A DNA stretch of 64,000 nt from Pseudomonas putida (lineage in GTDB: Bacteria > Pseudomonadota > Gammaproteobacteria > Pseudomonadales > Pseudomonadaceae), in contig NZ_CP011789.1 of assembly GCF_001636055.1 (NCBI RefSeq), positions 3,286,001-3,350,000 of the forward strand, given 5' to 3'. This document shows positions 50,762 through 64,000 of the stretch, piece after piece. The notes under the pieces are model-generated. The model had not been told where the DNA came from. It did no database searches and saw nothing but the letters and a program-made list of their open reading frames with translations. Positions within the stretch are counted from its first letter, which is position 1. Every line of letters begins with the position of its first letter. The position numbers were made by a program, and so were the translations under genes.

Positions 50762-53388
50762 TACACTGCTCCTTCCAATTGCTTCGCTTTAGCAGCCTTG
50801 TCCATGCTCTCCACCAGCAGCTGCGGCAGCAGGCCGCCGCGGCGGAAGTAGCGCACGTCTTCATGTGTATCCAGGCGGCTGGTGACGGTTACGTTTTCAG
50901 TGGAGCCATCTGCACGCTCAATGACGAGTAGCAGCTTGTCGCCAGGCGCGAAGGTGTCGTTGATGCCTTCCACCGAGAACTTCTCGTGACCGGTCAGGCC
51001 CAGCGTCTTGCGAGTTACACCTTCTGGGAACTGCAGCGGGAGGATGCCCAGGCCAGCCAGGTTGGTGCGGTGGATGCGCTCGAAGCTCTCGGCCACGACA
51101 ACGCGCACGCCCAGCAGGCGAGGGCCTTTGGCTGCCCAGTCACGCGACGAACCACTGCCGTACTCCTTGCCTGCCACTACTATCAGAGGCTGCTTGCGAT
51201 CGGCATAAGCTTGGGCGGCTTCGAACACGGTGCTCACGCGGTTTTCCGGCAGCAGCAGCGTCCAAGGGCCTTCGCGGCCGTCAGTCATCAGCTCGTTCTT
51301 CAGGCGAGGGCTTGCGAAGGTGGCGCGCTGTGCGGCTTCGTGGTTGCCGCGACGAGTGCCATAGGAGTTGAAGTCATCAACACCAATGCCGTGGCCTTTC
51401 AAATACGAACCTGCGTCGCTGTCCGGCAGGATGGCGCCCGACGGCGAGATGTGGTCGGTCGTAATGTTGTCCGCCAGCATCACCAGAACGCGCATGTCTT
51501 TCAGGTCGCGTTGAGGGTCGGTAGCAGTCAGCTCATCGCTCCAGTACGGCGGCTTGCGGATGTAGGTGCTGCTCTGGTCCCAGGCGTACTGATCGGTAAC
51601 GCCGGCGCGCAGGTCAGAGGCGATGACGCCCGCTTCGCGAGGTACCGAGCTGTAAGCCTTGTCGAACAGGTCGGCCGACAGTGCTTTCTTCTCGATCTCG
51701 TCCAGCTCTTGATCCGAAGGCCACAGCTCGCTGAGGTAAACCGGCTTGCCTTCGGCGTCGGTGCCGAGCGCATCCACTTGCGGGTCGATGCGGTAGGTGC
51801 CAGCAATCGCGTACGCCACGATCAGGGGAGGGGACATGATGAACACTTCACGAGCCAGCGGGTGTACGCGACCTTCGAAGTTGCGGTTACCGGAGGTCGC
51901 TGCAACGGTTTCCAGCTTGCGAGTGCGAATTTCGTCCTCGATCTCTTTGCTGAGCAGAGGGCCGGACATGCCGTTGCAGGTCGTGCAGCCGTAACCAACA
52001 ACGTTGAAGCCCATGTTGTCGAGGTCCACGTTCAGACCTGCACGGTCCAGGTAGTCGGCGACCACCTTGGAGCCGGGTGCGAAGGAAGTCTTGACCCATG
52101 GAGCACGACGCAGACCGCGCTTGAGTGCATTGCGGGCGACCAGGGCCGCAGCGATCACGCCACGGGGGTTGGAGGTATTGGTGCAGCTGGTGATGGCGGC
52201 AATCACGACCGAGCCGTTATCCAGGTCGGTAGGGACGTCTTTTGCTGCTTCGCCTTTACCCAGCAGGATGCGCTGGTGAGGTTGTTTCGGGCCGGCAATC
52301 GCACGACCAACGGTGCTCAGGTCGAGGGTGACGACACGGTCGTATTCGACCGATTCCAGGCTGTCATGCCACAGACCTTGATGTTTGGCATAAGCCTCGG
52401 TCAGCTCGGCAATCTCACCGCCGCGACCGCTGAGTCGCAGGTAGTGCAGGGTGCGATCGTCGATCGCGAACATTGCTGCGGTAGCGCCGAACTCAGGAGC
52501 CATGTTGGACAGGGTGCCACGGTCCGCCAAGGACAGGGCGGCAACGCCTGGGCCATGGAATTCCAACACGCTGCCGATTACGCCGGCTTTGCGCAGGCTT
52601 TCGGTCAAGGCAAGCGCGATGTCGGTAGCAACGTAGCCCGATGGCGGGACGCCTTCCAGTCGGACGCCGACGATTTCTGGAACCCGCATCATCAGGGCTT
52701 TGCCCAGCATTGCGGCTTCTGCCTCGATGCCACCAACACCCCAGCCCAGCACGCCGATGCCGTTGATCATGGTGGTGTGGCTGTCAGTGCCGACTAGCGT
52801 ATCTGGGAATGCCCACAGATCACCTTCAACTTCACGAGTGCCGATGACGGTGGTCAGGCGCTCCAGGTTGATCTGGTGAAGGATGCCGTTACCTGAAGGC
52901 ACGATCGACAGGTTGTTGAAGGCCTTGTTGCACCAGTCGAGGAATGCAAAGCGTTCGGCATTGCGCTCGCGCTCGATGGCTTCGTTATCGGCCAATGCGC
53001 TGGCATCACCCCAACGCTCTACGTTCAGCGAGTGGTCCACGACGAGGTGAGTAGGGGTGACCGGGTTTACCTGGCGTGGATCGCCGCCTGCTTTTGCTAC
53101 TGCGTCACGCAGACCGGCCAGGTCGACCAGGGCAGGGGTGCCGAGCAGGTCCTGAAGAACCACGCGAGCGGGGCGGAAGGGGATGTCGCTGTTTTTAGAT
53201 CGAGTGCAAATTACCTTCAGCGCTTCGTTCGGCTCTGCTTCGGTGCGCAGGACGTTTTCAGCGAGGATCCGGAGGCTCATTGGCAGGCGGGCAAAGTCGC
53301 CGCCTATCGCTTTTACAGCTTCCGATACGTTGCAGACGCGGTAGTCGCGACCGTTTACGGCCAGGGTTTGGCCAATGTGCTTGCTCAT
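50761..53388 (-). CDS. acnA: Aconitate hydratase (AcnA/AcnD-type)
   Basis: An 875-residue iron-sulfur hydratase of the AcnA/IRP group. The [4Fe-4S] cysteines are visible in ITSCTNTSNP and YGCTTCNG; VGTDSHTTMINGIGVLGWGVGGIEAEAAMLG is the AcnA signature and the C-terminal swivel domain includes GSGSSRDWAAKG. N-terminal regions (LAGLRDAVAKAGGDPRQVNPVTPTHLVVDHS) lean toward AcnD, so it belongs to neither standard clade clearly. It would dehydrate/hydrate citrate, cis-aconitate or an analogue supplied by the PrpF isomerase. Its start lies 291 bases from the divergent CitMHS gene. A dedicated catabolic copy rather than the TCA housekeeping enzyme is likely. Confidence 0.88.
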   Translation of the reverse strand: MSKHIGQTLAVNGRDYRVCNVSEAVKAIGGDFARLPMSLRILAENVLRTEAEPNEALKVICTRSKNSDIPFRPARVVLQDLLGTPALVDLAGLRDAVAKAGGDPRQVNPVTPTHLVVDHSLNVERWGDASALADNEAIERERNAERFAFLDWCNKAFNNLSIVPSGNGILHQINLERLTTVIGTREVEGDLWAFPDTLVGTDSHTTMINGIGVLGWGVGGIEAEAAMLGKALMMRVPEIVGVRLEGVPPSGYVATDIALALTESLRKAGVIGSVLEFHGPGVAALSLADRGTLSNMAPEFGATAAMFAIDDRTLHYLRLSGRGGEIAELTEAYAKHQGLWHDSLESVEYDRVVTLDLSTVGRAIAGPKQPHQRILLGKGEAAKDVPTDLDNGSVVIAAITSCTNTSNPRGVIAAALVARNALKRGLRRAPWVKTSFAPGSKVVADYLDRAGLNVDLDNMGFNVVGYGCTTCNGMSGPLLSKEIEDEIRTRKLETVAATSGNRNFEGRVHPLAREVFIMSPPLIVAYAIAGTYRIDPQVDALGTDAEGKPVYLSELWPSDQELDEIEKKALSADLFDKAYSSVPREAGVIASDLRAGVTDQYAWDQSSTYIRKPPYWSDELTATDPQRDLKDMRVLVMLADNITTDHISPSGAILPDSDAGSYLKGHGIGVDDFNSYGTRRGNHEAAQRATFASPRLKNELMTDGREGPWTLLLPENRVSTVFEAAQAYADRKQPLIVVAGKEYGSGSSRDWAAKGPRLLGVRVVVAESFERIHRTNLAGLGILPLQFPEGVTRKTLGLTGHEKFSVEGINDTFAPGDKLLLVIERADGSTENVTVTSRLDTHEDVRYFRRGGLLPQLLVESMDKAAKAKQLEGAV

Positions 53389-53396
53389 GCCGGGGA

Positions 53397-53421
53397 CCTC
53401 ACAGGCGTGTTTTTTGTGAGG
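53397..53421. promoter_or_regulatory. Dyad upstream of the aconitase gene
   Basis: CCTCACA at 53397-53403 and TGTGAGG at 53415-53421 are perfect complements with an 11-base spacer, beginning 8 bases upstream of the aconitase start codon. The region between 53389 and 53679 is the shared control region of two divergent operons; this dyad is a candidate operator for the GntR protein at 55832. The rest of the gap shows nothing firm. Confidence 0.4.
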
Positions 53422-53679
53422 CGATATTGCACTTTGTCTAAACTTGAGTCAATTTATCTCCAGCAGAAAAACTTCGGTCGAGCGCCGAATGGTCACCTTG
53501 AAGCCTGAAGACCGGCCATTTATCTGCCTGCCAACCTTTCCCGCACAAAGACAAAAACGAGGAAATTCAAGATGAAATGCAATCAGACCTACCGTAAATC
53601 CGTCCGGCACCAGTCCGCTCAGTCCCTTTCGTTCCGCTAAAGCTTGGCTTCGCGGCACTAAAACAATAAGGAGAGAGCC

Positions 53680-55002
53680 ATGCTGCTGACCGTGCTCGGT
53701 TTTTCGATGGTCACCTGTTTCATGTACCTGATCATGACCAAGCGGCTTACCGCCCTGGTTGCCTTGATCGTGGTACCGATCGTGTTTGCCCTGATTGGTG
53801 GCTTCTACGCCGGCCTGGGCGGAATGATGCTCGACGGCATCAAAACGTTGGCGCCGACTGGTGTCATGCTGACCTTCTCGATTCTTTACTTCGGCATCAT
53901 GATCGACGCGGGACTGTTCGATTCATTGGTGCGCTGCATCCTGAAGATCGTGAAGGGTGACCCGCTGAAGGTCTTGGTCGGAACCACGATCTTGACCATG
54001 CTTGTATCCCTGGATGGCGACAGTTCCACTACTTACATGATCGTGGTCGCCGCATTCCTGCCGCTTTATCAGCGCCTGGGAATGAGCGTTCTGGGCCTGA
54101 CCTGCGTGGTCAACATCGCCAACGGCATCATGAACATCTCCCCGTGGGGCGGCCCTACTGCCCGCGCTGCGGCTGCGCTGCATGTCGACGCTATGGACAT
54201 CTTCCTGCCTATGGTGCCGTCGATGCTGCTGGGCTGCGCCTGCTTGCTCTTCATCGCAATTCTGCTGGGTCGACGTGAGCGTGCTCGCCTGGGCGTGATT
54301 GCCGTGGATGATTTCCACAACGGCTCTATCGCGCTGGGTAATGGTTCGCATGAGGAGTGCGATCGCAATCGCCGTCCGCACATGTTCTGGCCCAACCTGT
54401 TACTCACTGCAACGATGATTGGCGTGTTGATGGCAGGTATCGTACCGATTCAAGTGCTGTTCATGGTCTGCTTCGCCATCGCGGTGATGATCAACTACCC
54501 ACATCTGGAGCAGCAGAAAGAGCGTATCTCCGCTCACGCGGGCAACGTTCTCGCGGTGACTTCGGTCATTTTCGCCGCAGGCATCTTCACCGGCATCCTT
54601 TCGGGTACCGGCATGGTCGATGCGATGGCGAAGGGGCTGTTGGCAGTCATTCCTGATGCGTTTGGCCCATACCTGGCGGTGTTCACTGCCTTGGTCAGCA
54701 TTCCGTTCACCTTCTTCATGTCGAACGATGCCTTCTACTTCGGCATCTTGCCAGTGATCGCCCAGACCGCCGCTACCTACGGAATCTCGCATCTGGAGAT
54801 CGCCCGGGCATCGGTGGTTGGTCAGCCTGTTCACTTGCTCAGCCCATTGGTGCCTTCGCTATATCTGCTGGTGGCGTTGGCAAAAGTCGACCTGGGTGAC
54901 CACCAGCGCTTTGCGTTGAAATGGGCGCTCCTGGTGAGCATGGCCATGTTGGTAGGTGGCGTGATGTTCGGAGCATTCCCGGTCTATCACTCAGCTTCGT
55001 AA
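53680..55002 (+). CDS. CitMHS family citrate-metal:H+ symporter
   Basis: A 440-residue membrane protein of the CitM/CitH family that takes up metal-complexed citrate or related tricarboxylates. About 12 helices; signatures include [39 protein letters not shown] and [25 protein letters not shown] lies 6 bases before the ATG at 53680. It is divergent from the aconitase/PrpF operon, which together with the OprD porin gives a full route from outside the cell to the TCA cycle. The substrate (citrate, trans-aconitate or another tricarboxylate) cannot be decided from sequence. Confidence 0.93.
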
Positions 55003-55019
55003 GTTGATGGCTGGCCGTC

Positions 55020-55693
55020 GGCTCTGCTGGCGGTTGGCTGTTGGCTGGGTATCTGTTCTTCGGCAAGCCTGAAGACATGCGGTGGCTGTGCAGCCAAGAG
55101 AGCAAAACTATCCTGGATTCGCGTTCCGGTGGCGGCAAAAAGGGGGTGCTGCAGCTTCTGCGCAAGGCTGCAACGTCTACACCCAGTATCCCCTCCTGAC
55201 CTGGCTGCCGAGCTACCTTCAGCAAGAGCGGCATCTATTGCTGGAGAAATCGGTCTAGTGACTGCCATCCTGTATGCTGCTGCAATCGTGCTATACATGG
55301 GGCTGGGCAACCTCATCGGCTGGTATCTGACTCGCGGTGGCGGGTTTAACTCAGGCAAGCGCCGTAACGTGATTGCGATCTCGATGCTGATTGATAACTG
55401 CATTTTTTCTTGTGCCGTTTGCTGAATCTACTGCATCGCTTGTTTTGATTACGTCGCTCACTTTGGCTGGCATCGCGTCGACTACTTCGCTGAACTTCTC
55501 TTTGCTCAAGGACCTGCTGCCAAGTACCGGTGACGTTGTCGGGCAGTTGCGTTCATTGTCGTTGGCGGAAACCTTTTCGGTGTGGCCGCTCCGAGCGCCA
55601 CTGGGACGCTGTTCAAGCCACGAGTTCGTACAACTGGTCCTCATGATCGCAGGCATCCTCCTGGTGGCTGGTGCGTTTATTGCACTGCTATGA
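55020..55693 (+). pseudogene. Decayed MFS transporter (ACS type)
   Basis: Three frames carry the second half of an MFS carrier in the right order: YLFFGKPEDMRWLCSQE, TWLPSYLQQERHLLL, then a stop; VTAILYAAAIVLYMGLGNLIGWYLT and RRNVIAISMLI, then a frame change near 55405; STTSLNFSLLKDLLPSTGDVVGQ, then another change to IVVGGNLFGVAAP, finishing AGILLVAGAFIALL at 55693. At least one stop and two frameshifts plus a missing first half show it is dead. It lies between the CitMHS gene and the GntR regulator and may be a displaced earlier transporter of the same pathway. Confidence 0.65.
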
Positions 55694-55773
55694 CCCGTAA
55701 GCCAATGGTCTCGACATCTGTTAACGCCGAACTCCATTTGGAAATGAACCCGCAAAAGGCATAATGTGGGAGC

Positions 55774-55805
55774 TGTGGGGTTCGTCTGATGGGAGGAGCC
55801 CCACA
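55774..55805. repeat. Hairpin before the GntR gene
   Basis: TGTGGGG at 55774-55780 and CCCCACA at 55799-55805 pair perfectly around an 18-base loop, 26 bases before the GntR start. It could lie in the 5' untranslated leader or end the decayed MFS transcript. A related TGTGGGA sits just upstream at 55765. Confidence 0.4.
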
Positions 55806-55831
55806 ATCCAACGCCCCAACTCGGAAAAGAT

Positions 55832-56758
55832 ATGAATTTGACGCCTCTTCAAGCCCGCGTGGCTCGCGATATCGTTGCCTATGTTCGCCAAGAGCAACTG
55901 GCTGCGGGGCATCATGTCTCGGAGCTAGGACTGGCTAAGGCTTTGAAGACGTCACGAACTCCTATCAAGATTGCTCTCAACTACCTTGCCGAGCGAGGAT
56001 TGCTGAGTCAGGACCGCAATCGCGGTTTTTTCCTGGCCAAGCCCTATGATGATCTGGCTGAAATTGCCCAAGATTTGTCGGTCTCCATCGACGACCCGGT
56101 CTATCAGCAGATCGCGGTGATGCGACTGAACGGCCAGATTCCTGAGCAGTTTGCTGAAACGGACCTGATGCGTTTATTCAACATTTCACGCTATATGCTG
56201 CGAGGGGTTTTGAGCCGCATTCAACAAGAAGGCTGGATTGAGCAGCGTGCCGGCCAAGGCTGGCAATTCCTGCCGATGATCGACTCGGTCGAAGCCTACG
56301 AAGAAAGCTATTCCTTCCGAGCGATCATCGAGCCGGCGGGACTGCTTGCCCCAACGTTTATGATCGATACCGAAGCTTTGGCTCGCTGTAAAAAGCAGCA
56401 GCAATTCATTGCTGATGGCGGCTACCTGACCATGACTCCGCAGGAACTGTTCGAATCAAATGCTCAGTTTCACGAGACGCTTGCCAGCTTTTCCGGCAAC
56501 AGATTTCACGTCCAGACGGTTCGTCGTCTCGACCAGCTTCGCCGTCTTGTGGAATACCGTCAGGCTAGCAAGCGCGCTCCTCGGCGAGAGCAGGCGGTTG
56601 AGCATCTCGCTATCCTTGCTTGTCTTGAAAAAGGTGATCGGCTTGCAGCAGCTGATCACATGCGTAAGCACCTGGAACAAGCTCGCCGGCATAAAGTTGC
56701 AGCTGAGTTATTCGAGGCAGGTGAGCTGCCAATCAAAGTTGCTTTTGAGTCGGATTGA
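55832..56758 (+). CDS. GntR family regulator with two winged-helix segments
   Basis: A 308-residue regulator, longer than ordinary FCD-type GntR proteins (220-250). Residues 5-72 form one winged helix (ARDIVAYVRQEQLAAGHHVSELGLAKALKTSRTPIKIALNYLAERGLL). Residues about 90-150 look like a second one (VYQQIAVMRLNGQIPEQFAETDLMRLFNISRYMLRGVLSRIQQEGWI). The rest is an all-helical FCD-type effector domain (SNAQFHETLASFSGNRF, HLAILACLEKGDRLAAADHMRKHLE). It is next to the tricarboxylate cluster and is its most likely regulator. The start is ATG 55832. Confidence 0.85.
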   Translation: MNLTPLQARVARDIVAYVRQEQLAAGHHVSELGLAKALKTSRTPIKIALNYLAERGLLSQDRNRGFFLAKPYDDLAEIAQDLSVSIDDPVYQQIAVMRLNGQIPEQFAETDLMRLFNISRYMLRGVLSRIQQEGWIEQRAGQGWQFLPMIDSVEAYEESYSFRAIIEPAGLLAPTFMIDTEALARCKKQQQFIADGGYLTMTPQELFESNAQFHETLASFSGNRFHVQTVRRLDQLRRLVEYRQASKRAPRREQAVEHLAILACLEKGDRLAAADHMRKHLEQARRHKVAAELFEAGELPIKVAFESD

Positions 56759-58203
56759 GCTGGCAGTCTGGACCGCTTGTTCTATTCAGTTGTCTTTCCG
56801 GTTTAAATTGCGCAGTGCTGGTTTTCATGTTCCAGCGTACGTTCATCCGGTCCATGTTGGTGATGTCTGGTAGAGGTGGTTATAGCGGAGTCGTTTGTTG
56901 GCGCCCGCTCAGCGATAATTTCTGGATGTTGCATCAGATAGGCCTCGAACGCACGAGCGATCTTGTAGCTATTGTAAGGGGCCCCTATCCATAAGCCAGC
57001 TAAAACAAACAATTGGAGGCCCGTATGCTAGCGATAGATTTACTAGGCCCTTGCTCATCAGCAGGTCCGAGTTGCTGGAGTAGTCAGTTCCGTTGTTTCT
57101 GTGCGAATGGATCAGGTTCGCGGTCTAGCGGCATTCGTTTTGGGTAACCATCAATTGGCGGCTAACTGGCTCATCGAACCGGCCCTTGGCTTGGGGGGGC
57201 GCCCCCTGCAGTCTTCTTATGGATAACGAAGGGTATCGCCAAGTCTGCGAGTGCCTTGTGAGAATGGATTATGGTGTTTATTGATGCGCTGAGGACGTGA
57301 ATGTGAGTTCCGGCGTTTGGATAGTAGGGTCCCGCTGCGGTGGCGGAGTGCTATGTAGGTTTGAACGGATGGATGAGGTGCACGAGAAGTGGAAAAAACA
57401 TGCGATACAGACTCGATTGTTTTGATCGTGGAGCAACATGATTTTCGTCATCCAGTTTTGACTCGTGCGGCCTGACGGCCTTCGCTGAGCGGATTGGGTC
57501 GTCCCCATTCGCAGCAGATCTGTGACAGACAGAATCTGATGAGTAACAGTTTAGGGTGGCTGAAGAATTTCCGCTTCCTTTGTCCGGTCTGACCAGAAAT
57601 ATGCACAACGAAGCACATCATAGATGCGCAGGTTCATAGTATTTACTAATAAAAATCTTATCTTCATTAATCATTACTATTAATGGCAGCAATGGTAGTA
57701 GCTCACTACCTCTCGTCGCAGGATCGACCATTCTCAATCGAAAGGTCGTTTTATGAACTGGTCAGACCGCTGCGCTTACCGATTTGTATTTCACTTCTGG
57801 GTGCAAATAAAGTCAATTCAGCTGCAAATTCAAGCTCACAACGCTATTTACTCGAGGAGTGTGACCTGACCGGTCTAACCTGTTACGCCTGCTCGTGTGG
57901 TTGAGGAGCGTGCGAAGCTAGGCCGGGCTGTCGTCCTATCAGTCTGGGTATAGGAAGTTAACCGTCGGTTGAATGTGATGCGCGGGACGATTGAGCGTGT
58001 CGAAAAGGCACGTGAATTCTGCAAGCAGAGTAGCCTGCGGTCAGTACAACATCATGGATGTGTCAAGATTTATGCACTCTAGAGAAAACAATCCATGGTA
58101 AGTTAAAGTCAACGATGATTTAGAATCAGCGTCAAACTAAAAGACATCGTTAACGAAATGCTTTAGGATGTCCGACTATTTTCATTAAATTTGAGGATCT
58201 CAT
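56759..58203. other. AT-rich strip with relics, no intact gene
   Basis: About 1.4 kb between the GntR and MvaT-family genes. The only recognisable coding trace is the antitoxin relic at 57053-57284. A minus-strand frame at 56803-57012 contains KIARAFEAYLMQHPEIIAE, which reads like protein but has no recognised family. A plus-strand frame at 57683-57904 is unassigned. The last 150 bases before 58204 are AT-rich and must hold the promoter of the MvaT-family gene. Confidence 0.4.
57053..57284 (+). pseudogene. Relic of an Xre/MbcA/ParS-type antitoxin (DUF2384)
   Basis: One frame reads LAAFVLGNHQLAANWLIEPALGLGGRPL, the toxin-binding motif of MbcA/ParS/Xre antitoxins (...WL..P..ALGG..P). After a run of seven G's (57193-57199) the sequence continues in another frame as LLMDNEGYRQVCECLVRMDYGVY and stops at TGA 57282-57284, exactly how this family ends. 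The N-terminal DNA-binding half is absent and a stop lies just upstream. No RES or other toxin gene is adjacent. It is a dead antitoxin fragment. Confidence 0.6.
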
Positions 58204-58572
58204 ATGTCCCGCCTGGCAGAATTCCGTCAGCTTGAGCAAAAATTGGCCGCCCAGCTGGCCGAGCTGGAAGAAATGAAAAGCTCTTCTGAGCTGCAGAAAG
58301 AAATCGAATTTGAGACCAAGCTGCGCGATTTGCTGAGCAAATACGGTTACAGCCTTCGCGACATTATCAACATTCTGGATCCGCAGGCGAACCGTCGTTC
58401 AGTCGCTCCTTCAGCTGCAGAAAAGTCCCCGCGCCGCGCCCGTGAGGTGAAGCAGTACAAGAACCCGCACAATGGCGAGATCATCGAAACCAAGGGCGGC
58501 AATCACAAGCTGCTTAAGGAATGGAAAGCCGAGTACGGATCCGAGGAAGTGGAAAGCTGGCTGGCTCGCTAG
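58204..58572 (+). CDS. MvaT/MvaU family H-NS-like protein
   Basis: A 122-residue nucleoid protein of the pseudomonad MvaT family. Residues 1-62 are the coiled-coil oligomerisation segment (MSRLAEFRQLEQKLAAQLAEL, LRDLLSKYGYSLRDIINIL); the C-terminal DNA-binding part has YKNPHNGEIIETKGGNHKLLKEW, with the RGGN-type minor-groove loop here as KGGN. MvaT proteins coat AT-rich, horizontally acquired DNA and silence it. Its position between an AT-rich strip and an integrase/defence block fits either a core paralogue or an island-borne copy. A strong terminator follows. Confidence 0.93.
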   Translation: MSRLAEFRQLEQKLAAQLAELEEMKSSSELQKEIEFETKLRDLLSKYGYSLRDIINILDPQANRRSVAPSAAEKSPRRAREVKQYKNPHNGEIIETKGGNHKLLKEWKAEYGSEEVESWLAR

Positions 58573-58593
58573 AATCATCTTCCGAACGCAGAC

Positions 58594-58619
58594 AAACCGC
58601 CTTCAAGGGCGGTTTTTTT
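58594..58619 (+). terminator. Rho-independent terminator of the MvaT-family gene
   Basis: AAACCGCC-TTCAA-GGGCGGTTTTTTT, a GC-rich stem with a seven-T run, 22 bases after the stop codon. Textbook intrinsic terminator. Confidence 0.92.
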
Positions 58620-58807
58620 ATACATCCCAACCGCTGGCATTGAATCAAATTTCTACGTTTTCAATGGCTACACCCGATTGGACCGGGACGTCATGAGATG
58701 TAAGTGAGCTGAGATGGCCATCTGTCTCGATCATGCCTATCCAGAAACTCCAGCCAGCAGCGGTCAACGCAATCCTACCTCTGTTGGCAATCAGAGCGCG
58801 CCAGAAA

Positions 58808-59773
58808 TCACCCCTCAAGCTTCCGCACGAGTCCGCCGAATTGCTGGGCGGGCTCCACATAGCGCAGCGCCGACTTCATGTCACTCCAGCCTACGTATTC
58901 CATCAAGGTCTTGATGTCCCAGCCTGAACTCGCCGCCCATGTGGCAAAGCCCCGCCGGATGGAGTGAGCGGTAAACGTTTGAGAGGGTAGGCCGCAGCGC
59001 TCTAGGGTGCCCCGAAGAAGGGGGATGAGACTGTGGGCAGCGAGAGGTCGATCGCTGATGTTGCCCCAACGATCAATGCCCCGGAATACGCCGCCGCGGG
59101 TGAGGCCAGAAGCTTCCAGCCAATTGAGGTATGCCTCCACAGGACATAGCTTGGTCAATGAAGGGGTTTTGTACTCCCTCCCGATATTTTGTCGATCCCC
59201 CTTGCTAGTTCCCAAGTAAAACCTTATCCCAACGTAGCGCTCGGCATGTGTGTTCTCGATGGTGAGCCTGGCGAGTTCGTCTCCGCGAAACCCTCTCCAA
59301 AAGCCGATCGTCAGCAGGGCGATATCGCGAGTCGCTTTGAGTAGGCTAGACATGTTGCCGGCAGCTCTTGCCTGAACAACCTCCTCCTGGAGATGCGCCA
59401 CTGCCTTTTCGAGATGCAGCAATGCTAGGGGTGCCGCTTGCTTTTGCTGCACAGGGTGTAATGCCCGAATACCTTTTAACAATTGCCTGACCTTGGGTGC
59501 TTTAGTGGGGTCAGGGAATCCGTTGCTTTGATGCCAGTTGGCTAGGGCAGCCAAGCGCTGCTTGAGGGTACTGAGCGCCAGTTGGTCAGCGTACTCAGCG
59601 ATATACCGTACCACTGACTCACTGGTAGTGGGCAGATAGCCGCCCCAGGTCACCTCGTAGTGGGCGAGGGCAGCCGCATAGCTCTTCGAGGTGTTCTCTC
59701 GAACGCTCGCCTCTAGGTACCTCTCTGCCTTGCTGACCACTTCAACCACGCAATTTTCCCCGCTTCGAGCCAT
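58808..59773 (-). CDS. Tyrosine-type recombinase/integrase
   Basis: A 321-residue integrase with an N-terminal SAM-like core-binding domain (residues 12-110) and a catalytic domain. Active-site residues: R163 (WRGFRGDEL), K191 (TSKGDR), H270 and R273 (AHSIRRGF), W296 in place of the second histidine (VGWSD), and nucleophile Y305 (LRYVEP). His-to-Trp at that position is a known tolerated variant. It is divergent from the KfrA-type gene across 182 bases with repeats. The pair stands at the edge of a defence system, suggesting that it mobilises or once integrated this block. Attachment sites were not found. Confidence 0.9.
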   Translation of the reverse strand: MARSGENCVVEVVSKAERYLEASVRENTSKSYAAALAHYEVTWGGYLPTTSESVVRYIAEYADQLALSTLKQRLAALANWHQSNGFPDPTKAPKVRQLLKGIRALHPVQQKQAAPLALLHLEKAVAHLQEEVVQARAAGNMSSLLKATRDIALLTIGFWRGFRGDELARLTIENTHAERYVGIRFYLGTSKGDRQNIGREYKTPSLTKLCPVEAYLNWLEASGLTRGGVFRGIDRWGNISDRPLAAHSLIPLLRGTLERCGLPSQTFTAHSIRRGFATWAASSGWDIKTLMEYVGWSDMKSALRYVEPAQQFGGLVRKLEG

Positions 59774-59955
59774 CGGTTGCTCGCTTTTACCATTTGTACG
59801 GCATTTCTAACCATTTTACTGCCGCTCAACGGCATGACAAGCCATAAACCTCGATTATGTCTTGCCAAAAATTAAGGAATAATTGCTATATAAAAGTGTT
59901 AAAGTGGCACGTAATTACATGAAACGTAAAACAGTACGAAATCGTAGGGGCAGAC
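59774..59955. promoter_or_regulatory. Divergent region with direct repeats
   Basis: Next to the integrase start, ACCATTT occurs at 59789-59795 and 59810-59816, 21 bases apart (two helical turns). Next to the KfrA-type start, ACGTAA occurs at 59909-59914 and 59924-59929, with ACGAAA at 59936-59941. The region is AT-rich (CTATATAAAAG at 59886-59896). These repeats are candidates for KfrA-type autoregulation and integrase accessory sites. Confidence 0.4.
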
Positions 59956-60954
59956 GTGGCCAGAGGCGGCATTAACCTGGTACTGGTGCGCAAGGCTCGC
60001 GAGGCGCTGCTGTCGAGAGGGCAGAACCCTAGCATCGACGCGATACGCATCGAACTTGGAAATACCGGATCAAAGACAACGATTCAGCGGTTTTTGAAGG
60101 AGATTGAATCACACGACCCTCGACCCTCGGCTTCGCCTTCGCGCCTAAGTGATGAACTTACGGAGCTGGTGGGTAAGATGCTTGAACGCCTGCTTGAGGA
60201 GGGAAACGAAGCCTTGGCGCATGAGCGGGCCGCATTTGAGCTTGAACGCAAAGCGATGGCAGCTGAGAGCGGTACACTTCAAAGCAAGCTTGAGCAATCG
60301 CAATTGGAGATCGCCAAGCTGCAGTCAGCCCTGCAGGCTCAGGACGAAGAACTCAAGATCGTTCAATCCAGCCTACAAACCGAGATCACTCGAAACGCCC
60401 GGCTCAGCCAGAGCTGCAGCGACCTTGAGATTCGCGTGCAAGAGAAGGACGCCCAGATCGAATCTCTGGAGGAGAAGCATACGCATGCCAGAGAAGCACT
60501 CGAGCACTACCGAGTAGCGGTAAAGGAGCAGCGCGACCAGGATCTAAACCGTCACGAAACTCAGATCTACCAGATGCAGCAAGAGGTGACACTCCTCCAG
60601 CAGACGCTCATGGTTAAGCAGGAAGAAGCCACTCGACTGATTCGCGATAACGAGCGATTGATAGCCGAAAACCGTCAGCACGCCAAGGAGGCCAGCCAGC
60701 ATCGTGACGCTATCGAGCATCTGAGAGGCGACCTGGGCATCGCCAATGCTGCAACTGCTCGCGCGGAAGGGGCCAAAGAGCTACTGGCTCACCAGCTCGA
60801 AACCAAGAGTAAAGATGCTACCGATGCCCATCTGGCTGGAACAGCAGCGCAGCAAAGGGCAGAAGAGTTGAAGGCACTACTCGAGCAGTCTGAAAACGAG
60901 CTAGAAGCACTTCGCGCTGCGATTGAAACCAAGGATCGGTCTGAAAGTCGGTAA
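59956..60954 (+). CDS. KfrA-type DNA-binding coiled-coil protein
   Basis: A 332-residue protein. Residues 1-110 contain the KfrA_N helix-turn-helix region (LVRKAREALLSRGQNPSIDAIRIELGNTGSKTTIQRFLKEI), and residues 80-325 are an almost continuous alpha-helical coiled coil rich in Glu, Gln, Ala and Leu. KfrA proteins of plasmids bind repeats at their own promoter and form filaments. The start is GTG 59956 behind GTAGGGG. It is divergent from an integrase; such integrase/KfrA pairs mark mobile blocks. Its role in integration control or as a transcription regulator of the following defence genes is inferred. Confidence 0.85.
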   Translation: MARGGINLVLVRKAREALLSRGQNPSIDAIRIELGNTGSKTTIQRFLKEIESHDPRPSASPSRLSDELTELVGKMLERLLEEGNEALAHERAAFELERKAMAAESGTLQSKLEQSQLEIAKLQSALQAQDEELKIVQSSLQTEITRNARLSQSCSDLEIRVQEKDAQIESLEEKHTHAREALEHYRVAVKEQRDQDLNRHETQIYQMQQEVTLLQQTLMVKQEEATRLIRDNERLIAENRQHAKEASQHRDAIEHLRGDLGIANAATARAEGAKELLAHQLETKSKDATDAHLAGTAAQQRAEELKALLEQSENELEALRAAIETKDRSESR

Positions 60955-61397
60955 GCCTCGAGCCGAGACTTAGCAAGGAGTACTAATGTACTCCTCCCAA
61001 CCTTTAAGCATACGAGTTTCTTTGCGCCTTTACCCAGGGCTGATCAATAGCGATTTACTTGGCTAGATGCGTTGGGCCGGGTGTAACCGGATTCAACAGC
61101 CCCATAGGGGAGCATGGCGAAATAGCAGGCCGACACCTTCCGCAGCAGAATTACTCCCAAGTACGCCTTACCGCTAGCCAAATCGCATGAGATGAGGAGC
61201 CTAAGGTAGCCCACCAGTTCTGGCGGGGCAAAATACAGTAGCAATACTGCAAAATGGCGTATTGACATCAGTCGACGGGCTTTGGCCTACTCCGGTCACC
61301 AAATTGTGCCCGTTATGTGATGTGAGACCGGTCGCTTCCTAGCGCTGAGTTCACTGTCATGGGTTGCACCCCAAATGCTAGGAAGGGAGTTCTCTGC
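60955..61397. other. Stretch between the KfrA-type gene and qatA
   Basis: No supported gene. It holds the hairpin AGGAGTAC-TAAT-GTACTCCT at 60976-60995 (perfect 8-bp stem, no T-run), probably ending the KfrA-type transcript. A minus-strand frame at 61044-61268 is unassigned. TTGACA at 61262-61267 might be a -35 element for qatA, but no convincing -10 follows. GGAAGGGAG at 61381-61389 is the qatA ribosome-binding site. Confidence 0.4.
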
Positions 61398-63347
61398 ATG
61401 TTCCTGAACGACCAGGAAACGGCTACTGACCTGCTGTATTACGCCCCCATTGCCAAAACGGTACAGCGCCTGCTTCACGAATCGCGGGGCACCCCGGTCA
61501 CTATTGGCGTTCATGGTGATTGGGGAGCAGGTAAATCCAGTGTCCTGAAGATGACTCAGCAACTGCTCAACGCGGATAAGCGCGTCTGCTGCATATGGTT
61601 TAACGGGTGGACATTCGAAGGTTTCGAGGATGCGAAAACTGTCGTTATCCAGACCATTGTTGATGAGCTGAGACGTGCTCGCCCAGGCTCCACGAAAGTT
61701 GCCGAGGCCGCAAAGAAAGTCTTGCGGCGTGTGGATTGGTTCAAGCTGGCCAAGCATGCCGGAGGGCTAGGCTTCACCGCGCTAACCGGCATCCCTAGCA
61801 TTGACCAGCTCAAAGGGGCGGTGGAATCGATTTCCTCCTTCGTGCAGAACCCAGGTGACCATCTAAGCGTTGAGAGTCTAACCGGCCTTGCAGAGAAGGC
61901 CGGGGGCTTCATCAAGGATGCCGAAACAGAGTCTGAGCAGCTTCCCGAGCACATGCATCAGTTCCGAGTCGAGTTCGAAGAGCTTCTGACCGCCGCCGAC
62001 ATTGACCAATTGGTGGTCATCGTTGATGACCTGGATCGATGCCTACCCAAAACAGCCATCGCCACGCTCGAAGCCATCCGACTCTTCCTCTTCGTAAATC
62101 GAACTGCCTTCGTGGTCGGTGCCGATGAGGCAATGATTGAGTACGCGGTACGCGAGCACTTCCCAGACCTGCCGCAAGGTGCGGGGCCCGTGACCTACGC
62201 ACGTAACTACCTGGAGAAACTCATCCAGGTACCGTTCCGCATCCCGGCCCTCGGATTGGCGGAGACTCGTAGTTACATCACGCTGCTGCAGCTCGAGAGC
62301 TGTGTGAAAACGGACGACAAACAATTCAAAAGCCTTTTGGAAACCGCCCAGCAGGACATGCTCCGCCCCTGGAAGAGCACAGGCCTCGACCGCAAGGCTG
62401 TAGCTGGCGCCTTCGGCAACCCGCTTCCGGAGTTTGCCCAAGAAGCACTGGACACTAGTGCCTTGTTAGCCCGGATCTTGAGTGAGGGTACCCGCGGTAA
62501 CCCACGGCAGATCAAACGCTTCTTGAACTCCATGATGCTTCGCTACGCCATCGCCGATGCTCGAGGGTTTGCTGAGGACATCCGGCGCCCAATACTTGCA
62601 AAAATCATGTTGGCTGAGCGCTTCCACCCCGATTTTTACGAGCAACTGGCACGGATCGCGAGTCTGGATGCGAATGGCGTGGTACCTGCCATCGCCGAGT
62701 TGGAGAAGCGGGCTAGGAAATCCAAGGAGAGGATTTCAGAGCCAGAGGAGGGGAAAAGCTCCGGGAAGCTCAAGGCGGTGGCCACCTCTGGAGAGGTGAA
62801 CGACTGGGAGAAGAGTGATTGGATTAGCAATTGGGCGGCGATTGACCCCGCGCTATCGGGCATTGATTTGCGGCCGTACATCTTCGTGACTCGCGACAAG
62901 CGCAGCTCGTTGATGGGGCAGGTCGCAGTGAGTCATCTCGAGGCGCTCGTCGACAAGCTGATGGGCCCACCATTGCAGTTCAGACAAGGGGCCACGAAGA
63001 AAGAAATTTTGGGATTGGCTGAGGTTGATGCCGAGAATGTTTTTGATGCTCTCCGCGATCAGATAATCCAGGCGGACGATTTTTTGGATCAACCTAAAGG
63101 AGTTGCGGGGTTGATCGAGCTTGTCAAACAACGCCCCGCACTACAGAAACGCTTGGTCGAATTTGTCCGATCATTGCCCACACCAAAACTCGGCATGTGG
63201 GCTCCAGCCCCATGGCATGAGTGCCTGAAGGATACGAACGCTATCCAAGCGCTTGAGGGAATTCTCAGGGGCTGGAGCCAGCAGGTCGAAAACGAGAATC
63301 TCCAGAAGGCGGCCAATCGCGTACTGGCCTTCAGCGGCAAATCATAA
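61398..63347 (+). CDS. qatA: QatA: KAP-family P-loop NTPase of a Qat anti-phage system
   Basis: A 649-residue KAP-type NTPase. It begins LNDQETATDLLYYAPIAKTV; Walker A is GDWGAGKSS at residues 40-48, Walker B LVVIVDDLDRC at 205-215, and the sensor-like TRGNPRQIKRFLN follows near 378-390. A helical insertion with hydrophobic character (GGLGFTALTGIP) lies between the motifs, as in KAP proteins. The very next gene encodes a QatB-type protein, so this is the ATPase of the four-gene Qat system (QatA ATPase, QatB, QatC QueC-like, QatD TatD-like DNase) that defends against phages. The start is ATG 61398, favoured by GGAAGGGAG 8 bases upstream over the ATG at 61359. Confidence 0.88.
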   Translation: MFLNDQETATDLLYYAPIAKTVQRLLHESRGTPVTIGVHGDWGAGKSSVLKMTQQLLNADKRVCCIWFNGWTFEGFEDAKTVVIQTIVDELRRARPGSTKVAEAAKKVLRRVDWFKLAKHAGGLGFTALTGIPSIDQLKGAVESISSFVQNPGDHLSVESLTGLAEKAGGFIKDAETESEQLPEHMHQFRVEFEELLTAADIDQLVVIVDDLDRCLPKTAIATLEAIRLFLFVNRTAFVVGADEAMIEYAVREHFPDLPQGAGPVTYARNYLEKLIQVPFRIPALGLAETRSYITLLQLESCVKTDDKQFKSLLETAQQDMLRPWKSTGLDRKAVAGAFGNPLPEFAQEALDTSALLARILSEGTRGNPRQIKRFLNSMMLRYAIADARGFAEDIRRPILAKIMLAERFHPDFYEQLARIASLDANGVVPAIAELEKRARKSKERISEPEEGKSSGKLKAVATSGEVNDWEKSDWISNWAAIDPALSGIDLRPYIFVTRDKRSSLMGQVAVSHLEALVDKLMGPPLQFRQGATKKEILGLAEVDAENVFDALRDQIIQADDFLDQPKGVAGLIELVKQRPALQKRLVEFVRSLPTPKLGMWAPAPWHECLKDTNAIQALEGILRGWSQQVENENLQKAANRVLAFSGKS

Positions 63348-63355
63348 GGATTGAT

Positions 63356-64000
63356 ATGGGTACCTCCAAAGGATATGGAGGCCCGAGCTCCGGCTTGGTG
63401 CCTTCCTGGATTGATGATGTTGCGCAGCCAAGCGCACCGGCTGCTCAAGCCAACGGGCCAGGCCCGTCAAATCCATCGCAACCTGGTGCTATGCCATCTC
63501 AGCCGGGCTCCGCGCCATCAGCGCCAGTGAACAATGACGGCACTGGCTCCCTTCGCGGGGCGCGCAGTAGCTTCACCCGATTTGCCCGCACTGGCAGCCC
63601 TAGCGACCTTGGCAATGCGTTGTCTTCCTATGTGCGCAAAGGCGTTGGAGGATCTTCCAGAGGCGCGCGTCGCATGGGAACGTCCCGTGCTACTGCCGCC
63701 AAGCTGCTCAGCATCTTCGGAGATGTTCAGCGGAACGGGGCAGCTGAAACGCTGCGACGCTTGCAGCTCACCGTTGCCCCAGGGCAACCGGCCTCCCAGG
63801 TGCTGCTCACGCTACTTGAGTTCATTTGCCCGCCTGGAGGGGCGATCGACGAAGGTGTTGCGCGCCAGGCAGCGCTAAAGACAATCGCCGAACTGGACGA
63901 GGCAAGCAACGGTAGCTTCGATGACATGACCCAAGCTGATCGACAGAATTTCTTCCTCGACTTCGTAGCGAATTCGATTGAGAGCATGATCATGGCGGAT
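63356..64000 (+). CDS. qatB: QatB of a Qat anti-phage system (3' end outside window)
   Basis: The first 215 codons are in the window, starting 8 bases after the qatA stop. The opening MGTSKGYGGPSSGLVPSWIDD, the proline/serine-rich linker (residues 25-65) and the GARSSFTRFARTGSPSDLGNAL block that follows are the pattern of QatB proteins, whose biochemical role is not established. The rest is a helical region (KLLSIFGDVQRNGAAETL, VLLTLLEFICPPGGAIDEGV). The frame is still open at position 64000. QatC and QatD should follow to the right of the window. Confidence 0.85.
   Translation, partial: MGTSKGYGGPSSGLVPSWIDDVAQPSAPAAQANGPGPSNPSQPGAMPSQPGSAPSAPVNNDGTGSLRGARSSFTRFARTGSPSDLGNALSSYVRKGVGGSSRGARRMGTSRATAAKLLSIFGDVQRNGAAETLRRLQLTVAPGQPASQVLLTLLEFICPPGGAIDEGVARQAALKTIAELDEASNGSFDDMTQADRQNFFLDFVANSIESMIMAD

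Follow-up and report, generated by a model that had tools for sequence, protein, structure and literature searches.

The right end of a 64,000-nucleotide stretch of the Pseudomonas putida chromosome (contig NZ_CP011789.1, positions 3,286,001 to 3,350,000, or G000:C1:3286001-3350000, in a single-contig genome of 5.81 Mb; the whole stretch is called the window) carries a tyrosine recombinase gene and a divergent gene for a KfrA-type protein beside anti-phage genes. By homology, this pair is a cointegrate-resolution module of TnpS/TnpT type, as found in the Tn4651 group of Tn3 transposons. We propose, at a probability of about 0.7, that it is a functional orphan module, predicted to act through its resolution site, rst, as a crossover point for the turnover of genomic islands.

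Plasmid pWW0 encodes proteins of 323 and 332 amino acids (aa) that share 59% and 41% identity with the window recombinase and KfrA-type protein, respectively; their genes are adjacent and in the same arrangement, and this is the only place on pWW0 with kinship to either window protein. On pCAR1 the two genes occupy 52762-53733 and 53914-54915. These are the coordinates of the tnpS and tnpT transcripts, and TnpST is the cointegrate resolvase of transposon Tn4676 (PMC2642839; here and below, sources given by PMC number stand for the portions of their text that were available, PMC12629846 apart). A homologue of the KfrA-type protein on a P. veronii plasmid is annotated ‘Tn4652, cointegrate resolution protein T’, and the pair also occurs on pQBR55 and on P. 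aeruginosa plasmids. TnpS and TnpT form a two-part resolvase encoded by divergent genes with the rst site between them (PMC7157771); TnpS recognises a 23-bp core and TnpT has a 17-bp accessory site (PMC4619425), and cointegrates with two copies of rst are resolved by TnpS with TnpT (PMC7157771, PMC4619425, PMC2642839). The recurrence of the pair on pWW0, pCAR1, pQBR55 and P. aeruginosa plasmids would also suit a module that resolves plasmid multimers and entered the chromosome with integrated plasmids. We consider this origin improbable, as on pCAR1 the pair belongs to a transposon (PMC2642839) and no replication or partition gene was noticed beside the window pair in the open reading frame (ORF) lists, in which no search was aimed at such genes.

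We confirmed 529 relatives of the recombinase in named genomes, mostly of Pseudomonas, and fetched the best 80 of the 529 with up to 10 kb on each side and mechanical gene calls. Recombinase identity is 80-91% at 12 of these 80 loci and 57-63% at the other 68. The two genes are divergent and adjacent in 73 loci and 1.1-9.0 kb apart in 4; the remaining 3 have no kfrA nearby. Apart from the window’s own genome, 26 of 35 same-genus genomes encode the recombinase (E <= 1e-20) and 26 encode the KfrA-type protein (E <= 1e-8), and by both tables these are the same genomes. Pairwise DNA conservation covers both genes; immediately beyond the recombinase stop codon only a few per cent of pairs retain it, and past the end of kfrA about a tenth or fewer, with some flanks shared within closely related species groups. 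Because this conservation ends at the outer gene ends, the pair is a conserved two-gene unit in changing surroundings. Recombinase and KfrA distances are correlated (Mantel r 0.83, n = 74; the largest of 999 permutations gave 0.10), so the pair mostly travels together, but the 12 closest loci, counting the window, give a correlation of only 0.27.

The window also has the expected third element. An rst-like core sits about 95 bp upstream of the kfrA/tnpT start. The pWW0 and pCAR1 pairs have this site too, and it is present in 72 of the 77 loci that have kfrA; the five loci without a scored core (L096 and L108-L111) fall below the score limit and have divergent sequence at that place. Accessory repeats near the kfrA start were spotted by eye, without a statistic. 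The recombinase matches the Pfam family Phage_integrase (3.2e-10), finds its best match among solved structures in Cre recombinase (E 7e-7) and carries R163, K191, H270, R273, W296 and Y305, which we take to be the catalytic set of the family. Its partner matches KfrA_N (2.8e-22) and has no match among solved structures at E 0.01. The ratio of non-synonymous to synonymous change (pN/pS), from a simplified count on 12 chosen pairs for each gene, is 0.06-0.14 for the recombinase and 0.09-0.38 for kfrA; such low values in both genes argue that the module still does something. The last recombinase codons, after a conserved FGGL, vary among many loci, and DNA homology ends there; these C-terminal tails may come from adjacent DNA. 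The genome encodes a second KfrA-like protein (35% identity; G000:C1:3211576-3212085, L198 5576-6316), which we rejected as part of a second module, there being no recombinase match and only a weak rst-like site (score 10.7) in 12 kb.

The tyrosine recombinase, the divergent helper of similar size and the core palindrome between them are shared with Tn4651, Tn4652 and Tn4676; the differences are a genome in which no Tn3 transposase was found and neighbours that are anti-phage genes. The Tn3 transposase family PF01526 has 0 matches in the genome, compared with matches in 2 of 14 control genomes. Of the 26 same-genus carriers of the recombinase, 18 lack any Tn3-transposase match and 8 have one in some part of the genome, which in one case is only a fragment, and a TnAs3-type TnpA stretch lies in 3 of the 80 loci, within fetched flanks short enough for a distant transposase to be missed. 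Nor is there an exact inverted 14-mer, as terminal inverted repeats might give, between 56701-58850 and 66501-74200 (coordinates beyond 64000 continue those of the window). Because a Tn3 transposase is absent from the genome by this search and rare at related loci, the window module is not a complete Tn4651-type transposon. Orphan tnpS/tnpT genes are not new in themselves: a table in PMC3056050 records them for P. putida W619, F1 and GB-1 without the Tn4652 tnpA, W619 having another Tn3 tnpA. As we read the locus numbers there, 4 of 6 T/S pairs in four strains lie 8 to 58 numbers apart and 2 of 6 are neighbours, so cargo may separate T from S in those strains too.

Evidence that rst is a crossover point comes from pairs of loci in which similarity switches there, located by change-point mapping and base-level alignments; the pairs are not independent. 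Between L067 and L083, divergence falls from about 21% on the kfrA side to 0.1% on the recombinase side, and a stretch of about 2.4 kb that begins at the right arm of the core is 99-100% identical. For L105 and L112 the corresponding values, either side of that point, are 36% and 8%. At base resolution, both switches fall inside the core spacer or right arm. Two further pairs switch in the opposite direction: for the window and L038, divergence is 6.8% on the kfrA side but rises to 22% on the recombinase side, with the change-point 41 columns before the core; for L049 and L055 it is 6.6% and 28%, with the change-point 75 columns before it. As the kfrA side is the more similar one, these two switches are not explained by slower evolution of the recombinase.

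Insertions are found at the same place. Compared with L045, G266 has 15.7 kb between rst and tnpS and the same outer flanks, and the core stays close to tnpT despite intervening DNA in L079, L085, L099, L100, L143 and L146, the last with its recombinase 93 kb away. L144 has a weak core site near tnpT, again with intervening DNA, and in L100 a remnant of the recombinase also stays there. On pPNP1, IS21 genes are annotated in the place of kfrA and rst remains next to the recombinase.

Our hypothesis is that, once an incoming plasmid, a transposon or a second island has brought another module with its rst into a cell, TnpS recombines the two rst sites with the help of TnpT. The DNA between these sites would be deleted or exchanged, and the tnpT flank of one island could end up joined to the tnpS flank of a different island. 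The result would be chimeric tnpT-rst-tnpS modules with new neighbours, a process that may have brought Qat and Gabija next to the window module and removed other genes. Integration of the islands would not be driven by the module itself. Chimeric modules are seen, and recombination between rst sites is the reaction that we infer to have made them. Genome G023 has two modules in direct orientation. The competing possibility that the module is an inert relic, a Tn4651-type remnant without tnpA next to defence genes because both collect in plastic chromosome regions, gains from the missing Tn3 transposase and from the P. putida strains that carry tnpS/tnpT without the Tn4652 tnpA (PMC3056050). 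We regard it as rather unlikely given the purifying selection, the intact catalytic residues, the presence of rst in nearly all loci with kfrA and the switches at that site.

Several observations weigh against crossover at rst. Identity between L067 and L083 returns beyond kfrA (about 90-98%), which makes theirs a two-ended exchange that could be homologous recombination ending at rst. Other change-points fall within the recombinase gene and at the variable 3' end of that gene, as in most of the 20 pairs listed with a more similar kfrA side, and L104 and L105 switch about 156 columns past the core start. The recombinase evolves more slowly than kfrA, which by itself would place change-points near the gene boundary. 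The inserted DNA in G266 and L079 has no second core site at its far end, so simple recombination between two rst sites does not explain these insertions, and the core-site scan found no locus with two strong rst sites flanking cargo. In the window’s own genome the rst pattern matches once without mismatch and once elsewhere with 3 mismatches, which at present leaves the module without a clear partner site.

A model in which every cargo is bounded by two rst sites was dropped, as was an integron-like cassette array, since the scan found no array of rst-like sites (attC itself was not searched). At 9 of 81 loci there are weak extra core matches (11.5-17.2) at a distance from the pair. True core sites mostly score above 20, with the lowest at 8.3, 13.8 and 16.4, so a weak second site is possible. 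One weak rst-like site (17.9) lies in L136 at 9314 (genome G024), between the module and a methyltransferase gene.

We offer more tentatively a broader version of the crossover proposal, in which rst would be a genus-wide platform for the exchange of defence islands. Circles or replicons with one rst may recombine with a resident rst, so that defence or catabolic cargo is gained, lost and re-paired. Such a fixed recombination point would need no transposase, no conjugation genes and no attachment (att) sites of the integrase type, and would parallel integron-style capture with a resolvase as its basis.

The surroundings of the module are rich in defence genes. We compared flanking proteins with PADLOC models in a near set (the 12 closest fetched loci; E <= 1e-10, proteins over 2500 aa left out) and a distant set (50 loci, after 18 same-locus duplicates were dropped; E <= 1e-20, proteins below 110 or above 1800 aa left out; the recombinase side covered 47 of the 50). 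The tallies list the 25 commonest families and count families, not proteins or complete systems, and one protein may match several. In the near set, 65 proteins on the kfrA side match 45 families, the matches listed including Shango SngA, SngB and SngC with 4 members each, and 72 proteins on the recombinase side match 100, with Gabija, JukA, JukB, TmtA, PD-Lambda-1 and MkoA among those listed. In the distant set, 145 proteins on the kfrA side match 110 families (QatA, QatC, GajB, AbiEi, Drt4, Drt6, PtuA, KwaB, ThsB, MkoA and MkoC among the matches listed) and 137 on the recombinase side match 129 (PtuA, PtuB, GajA, GajB, Avs4 and several PDC candidates among those listed). The control, 143 of 206 proteins from 11 other Pseudomonas chromosome stretches, matches 7 families at E <= 1e-20: mad3 (3 members), typeIV_DinG, C3a194, Ppl, two PDC-M37B models and DolB. 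These data support the pair as a marker of islands with variable, defence-rich cargo. The cargo is not only defence: the 15.7-kb block of G266 holds, by reading of the sequence, transport and catabolic genes, and the plasmid copies of the module lie near mercury-resistance, transposase or toxin-antitoxin-like genes.

Qat itself recurs in other positions. In L079 (P. asturiensis) Qat separates tnpS from rst/tnpT, and an OLD/UvrD-like pair occupies the opposite side; L044 (P. putida KH-21-134) has qatBCD next to an N-terminally shortened recombinase (match from residue 46); L068 has Qat on the far recombinase side, and L090 has more distant Qat relatives. Neither qatA nor kfrA was found beside the L044 recombinase, and this strain has a second module with kfrA (L038) about 15 kb away. 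The KfrA-type protein might regulate the window’s Qat operon, as its gene is on the same strand and adjoins qatA across a 443-base gap. We think this very unlikely: DNA beyond kfrA is mostly not shared among loci and the neighbours vary from locus to locus, the conserved intergenic DNA lies on the recombinase side of kfrA, and rst is the place where a TnpT-type partner would be expected to act.

The initial annotation had read the pair as the mobility or maintenance module of a defence island with variable cargo. The varied, defence-rich neighbours uphold the second half of that reading; the mobility role is unsupported, given the TnpS/TnpT homology, the genome in which no Tn3 transposase was found and the lack of repeats, tRNA or target in the ranges tested. 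The suggested check for direct repeats around the block was negative: no exact same-orientation 12-mer is common to 56701-58850 and 66501-74200, a comparison that would miss a shorter or imperfect repeat. Neither a tRNA nor a tmRNA lies in the window or in L002-L004, L002 has no Rfam match, and no common target sequence stands next to the 80 loci, whose flanks are mostly not shared. An integrase with att repeats was thus rejected for lack of a direct repeat, tRNA or shared target in the ranges tested. That the recombinase is nevertheless the integrase of a defence-carrying genomic island, with KfrA as a maintenance or regulatory protein, is suggested by its family, by the variable, defence-rich cargo, by a Shango-kfrA-recombinase block of about 8.15 kb with sharp ends in three contexts (L037, L039 and L040) and by a 7.2-kb block common to L049 and L055; with no exact direct repeat of at least 12 bp, tRNA, Rfam match or common target in the ranges above, and with homology to resolution proteins, we judge it quite unlikely.

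No clean empty site was recovered. Three genomes match the left flank of the window island as far as about 56800-56853, beyond which their DNA is different, and in one of them, G280, part of the far right side is inverted. The joined flanks of L045 have no contiguous match in 298 genomes (E 1e-100, two candidates scored per genome); 22 genomes matched, all except G266 by one flank only. The neighbours of the MFS gene beside L045 vary, and the right-flank methyltransferase gene was discarded as an anchor, as its surroundings vary too. G093, G280 and G328 have a 435-aa transporter-like gene between CitMHS and GntR genes that is not intact in the window (about 55000-55830).

The features of the locus are collected in the table. 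Pfam and PADLOC matches bear out the arrangement first noted, an intact tyrosine integrase and a divergent KfrA-type gene followed after 443 bases by qatA and a partial qatB, and the Qat system, at first visible only to the window end, proves complete to its right, where a Gabija pair follows.

Table. Features at the right end of the window and beyond it; positions above 64000 continue the window coordinates.
Feature	Position	Strand	Basis
MvaT-family gene beside the recombinase; a neighbour, membership in the module unsupported	58204..58572	+	
TnpS-like tyrosine recombinase (the integrase of the initial annotation), 321 aa	58808..59773	-	ORF, Pfam, homology to pWW0 pair
rst-like core, imperfect 25-bp inverted repeat with 9-bp arms and 7-bp spacer	59839..59863		site pattern, relatives
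Candidate accessory repeats for the TnpT-like protein, before its gene	59904..59930		placed by eye
TnpT-like protein with KfrA_N, 332 aa, GTG start	59956..60954	+	ORF, Pfam, homology
qatA, probable start 61398	61359..63347	+	ORF, PADLOC 9e-289
qatB (window part to 64000)	63356..64219	+	PADLOC 4.8e-67
qatC, right of window	64216-65592		PADLOC QatC 7.1e-190
qatD, right of window	65589-66356		PADLOC QatD 1.6e-120
gajA, right of window	66592-68190		PADLOC 8.1e-206
gajB, short-type, right of window	ends 69253		PADLOC 2.5e-133

Because the PADLOC QatA match begins at residue 14, the start of QatA is probably the ATG that gives the 443-base gap after the KfrA-type gene. Qat motifs are present (MGTS, P16 and W18 in QatB; SGGMDS at 156, T278 and T280 in QatC), motifs that are essential to Qat activity in P. 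aeruginosa (PMC13279940). Compared with the qatABCD of that study, gene order is the same, the residue numbers of the motifs are identical and the features compared show no difference. Gabija is recognised by GajA (OLD-like, TOPRIM) followed by GajB (UvrD-like). Beyond gajB come a DUF2513 protein, hypothetical genes, a broken integrase-like gene, a methyltransferase and phenylacetate-type genes, the methyltransferase, phenylacetate and integrase-like labels being a reading of the sequences and no database result. The broken gene, of another tyrosine-recombinase-like family, lies in three fragments at 70667-71943 on the minus strand (L002 16667-17943); the fragments have no significant match to the TnpS-like recombinase and no Pfam match at 0.001, and an ORF in L066 (7376-8452) resembles one of them. 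Between 57 kb and the end of the window, G+C content is about 0.49-0.58; at 50-55 kb it is about 0.58-0.62, except for one bin at 0.557.

Genes for MvaT-family silencers lie within about 10 kb of many modules, as in the window and in L037, L039, L044, L060, L079, L109 and others, and immediately downstream of the recombinase in L060, L061, L072, L073 and L088. The order mvaT-recombinase-kfrA-...-methyltransferase of the window recurs in L135-L137 (G024, P. mosselii SC006), with 38 kb between kfrA and the methyltransferase gene, holding Shango and two OLD/helicase-like pairs, where the window has 13 kb. About 2.09 kb straight after the recombinase stop codon in L105 (10971-13061) is absent from L104 (10991), and module plasmids carry at this place a Gp37/68-TcmP gene pair, to which the L105 insert shows a resemblance by eye.

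The components described here are known: Qat, Gabija, TnpS/TnpT and rst, and passenger genes at rst in Xanthomonas (PMC4619425). In TnXocp1, TnXop1, TnSml1 and TnPsd1, from Xanthomonas and relatives, passengers lie between tnpS and tnpT, where rst is, and resemble in this the insertions of L079, G266 and others; those elements differ as tnpA-tnpS-tnpT units, and the passengers named for them are mainly metal resistance genes (PMC4619425). The cDHS1 and cDHS2 regions of P. aeruginosa are likewise variable and defence-rich, including Shango, but are set by flanking core genes, with no single mobile-element type, and the main text of that study does not name TnpS, TnpT, KfrA, resolvase or cointegrate (PMC10250203). 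Islands with the recombinase IntY in Pseudomonas also combine a tyrosine recombinase with defence cargo; they integrate downstream of the tmRNA gene, with 14-bp direct repeats and alpA, whereas no tRNA, tmRNA or repeats were found here, and that paper has no KfrA, cointegrate, TnpS, TnpT or resolvase (PMC12595487). PMC12629846 has no TnpS or KfrA, and the portions seen of PMC10561277 and PMC12375680 treat KfrA as a plasmid protein, without TnpT. In open-licence full texts we found no link of orphan TnpS/TnpT to Pseudomonas defence islands and no rst crossovers between such islands.

By what routes systems enter and leave defence islands is still an open question, for which integrases, transposases, prophages and conjugative elements have been proposed in the literature. 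If our proposal holds, islands in a large genus would turn over at a recombination point made of an orphan transposon resolvase and its rst site, and tnpS-rst-tnpT triplets could serve as sequence handles to undescribed defence genes beside them.

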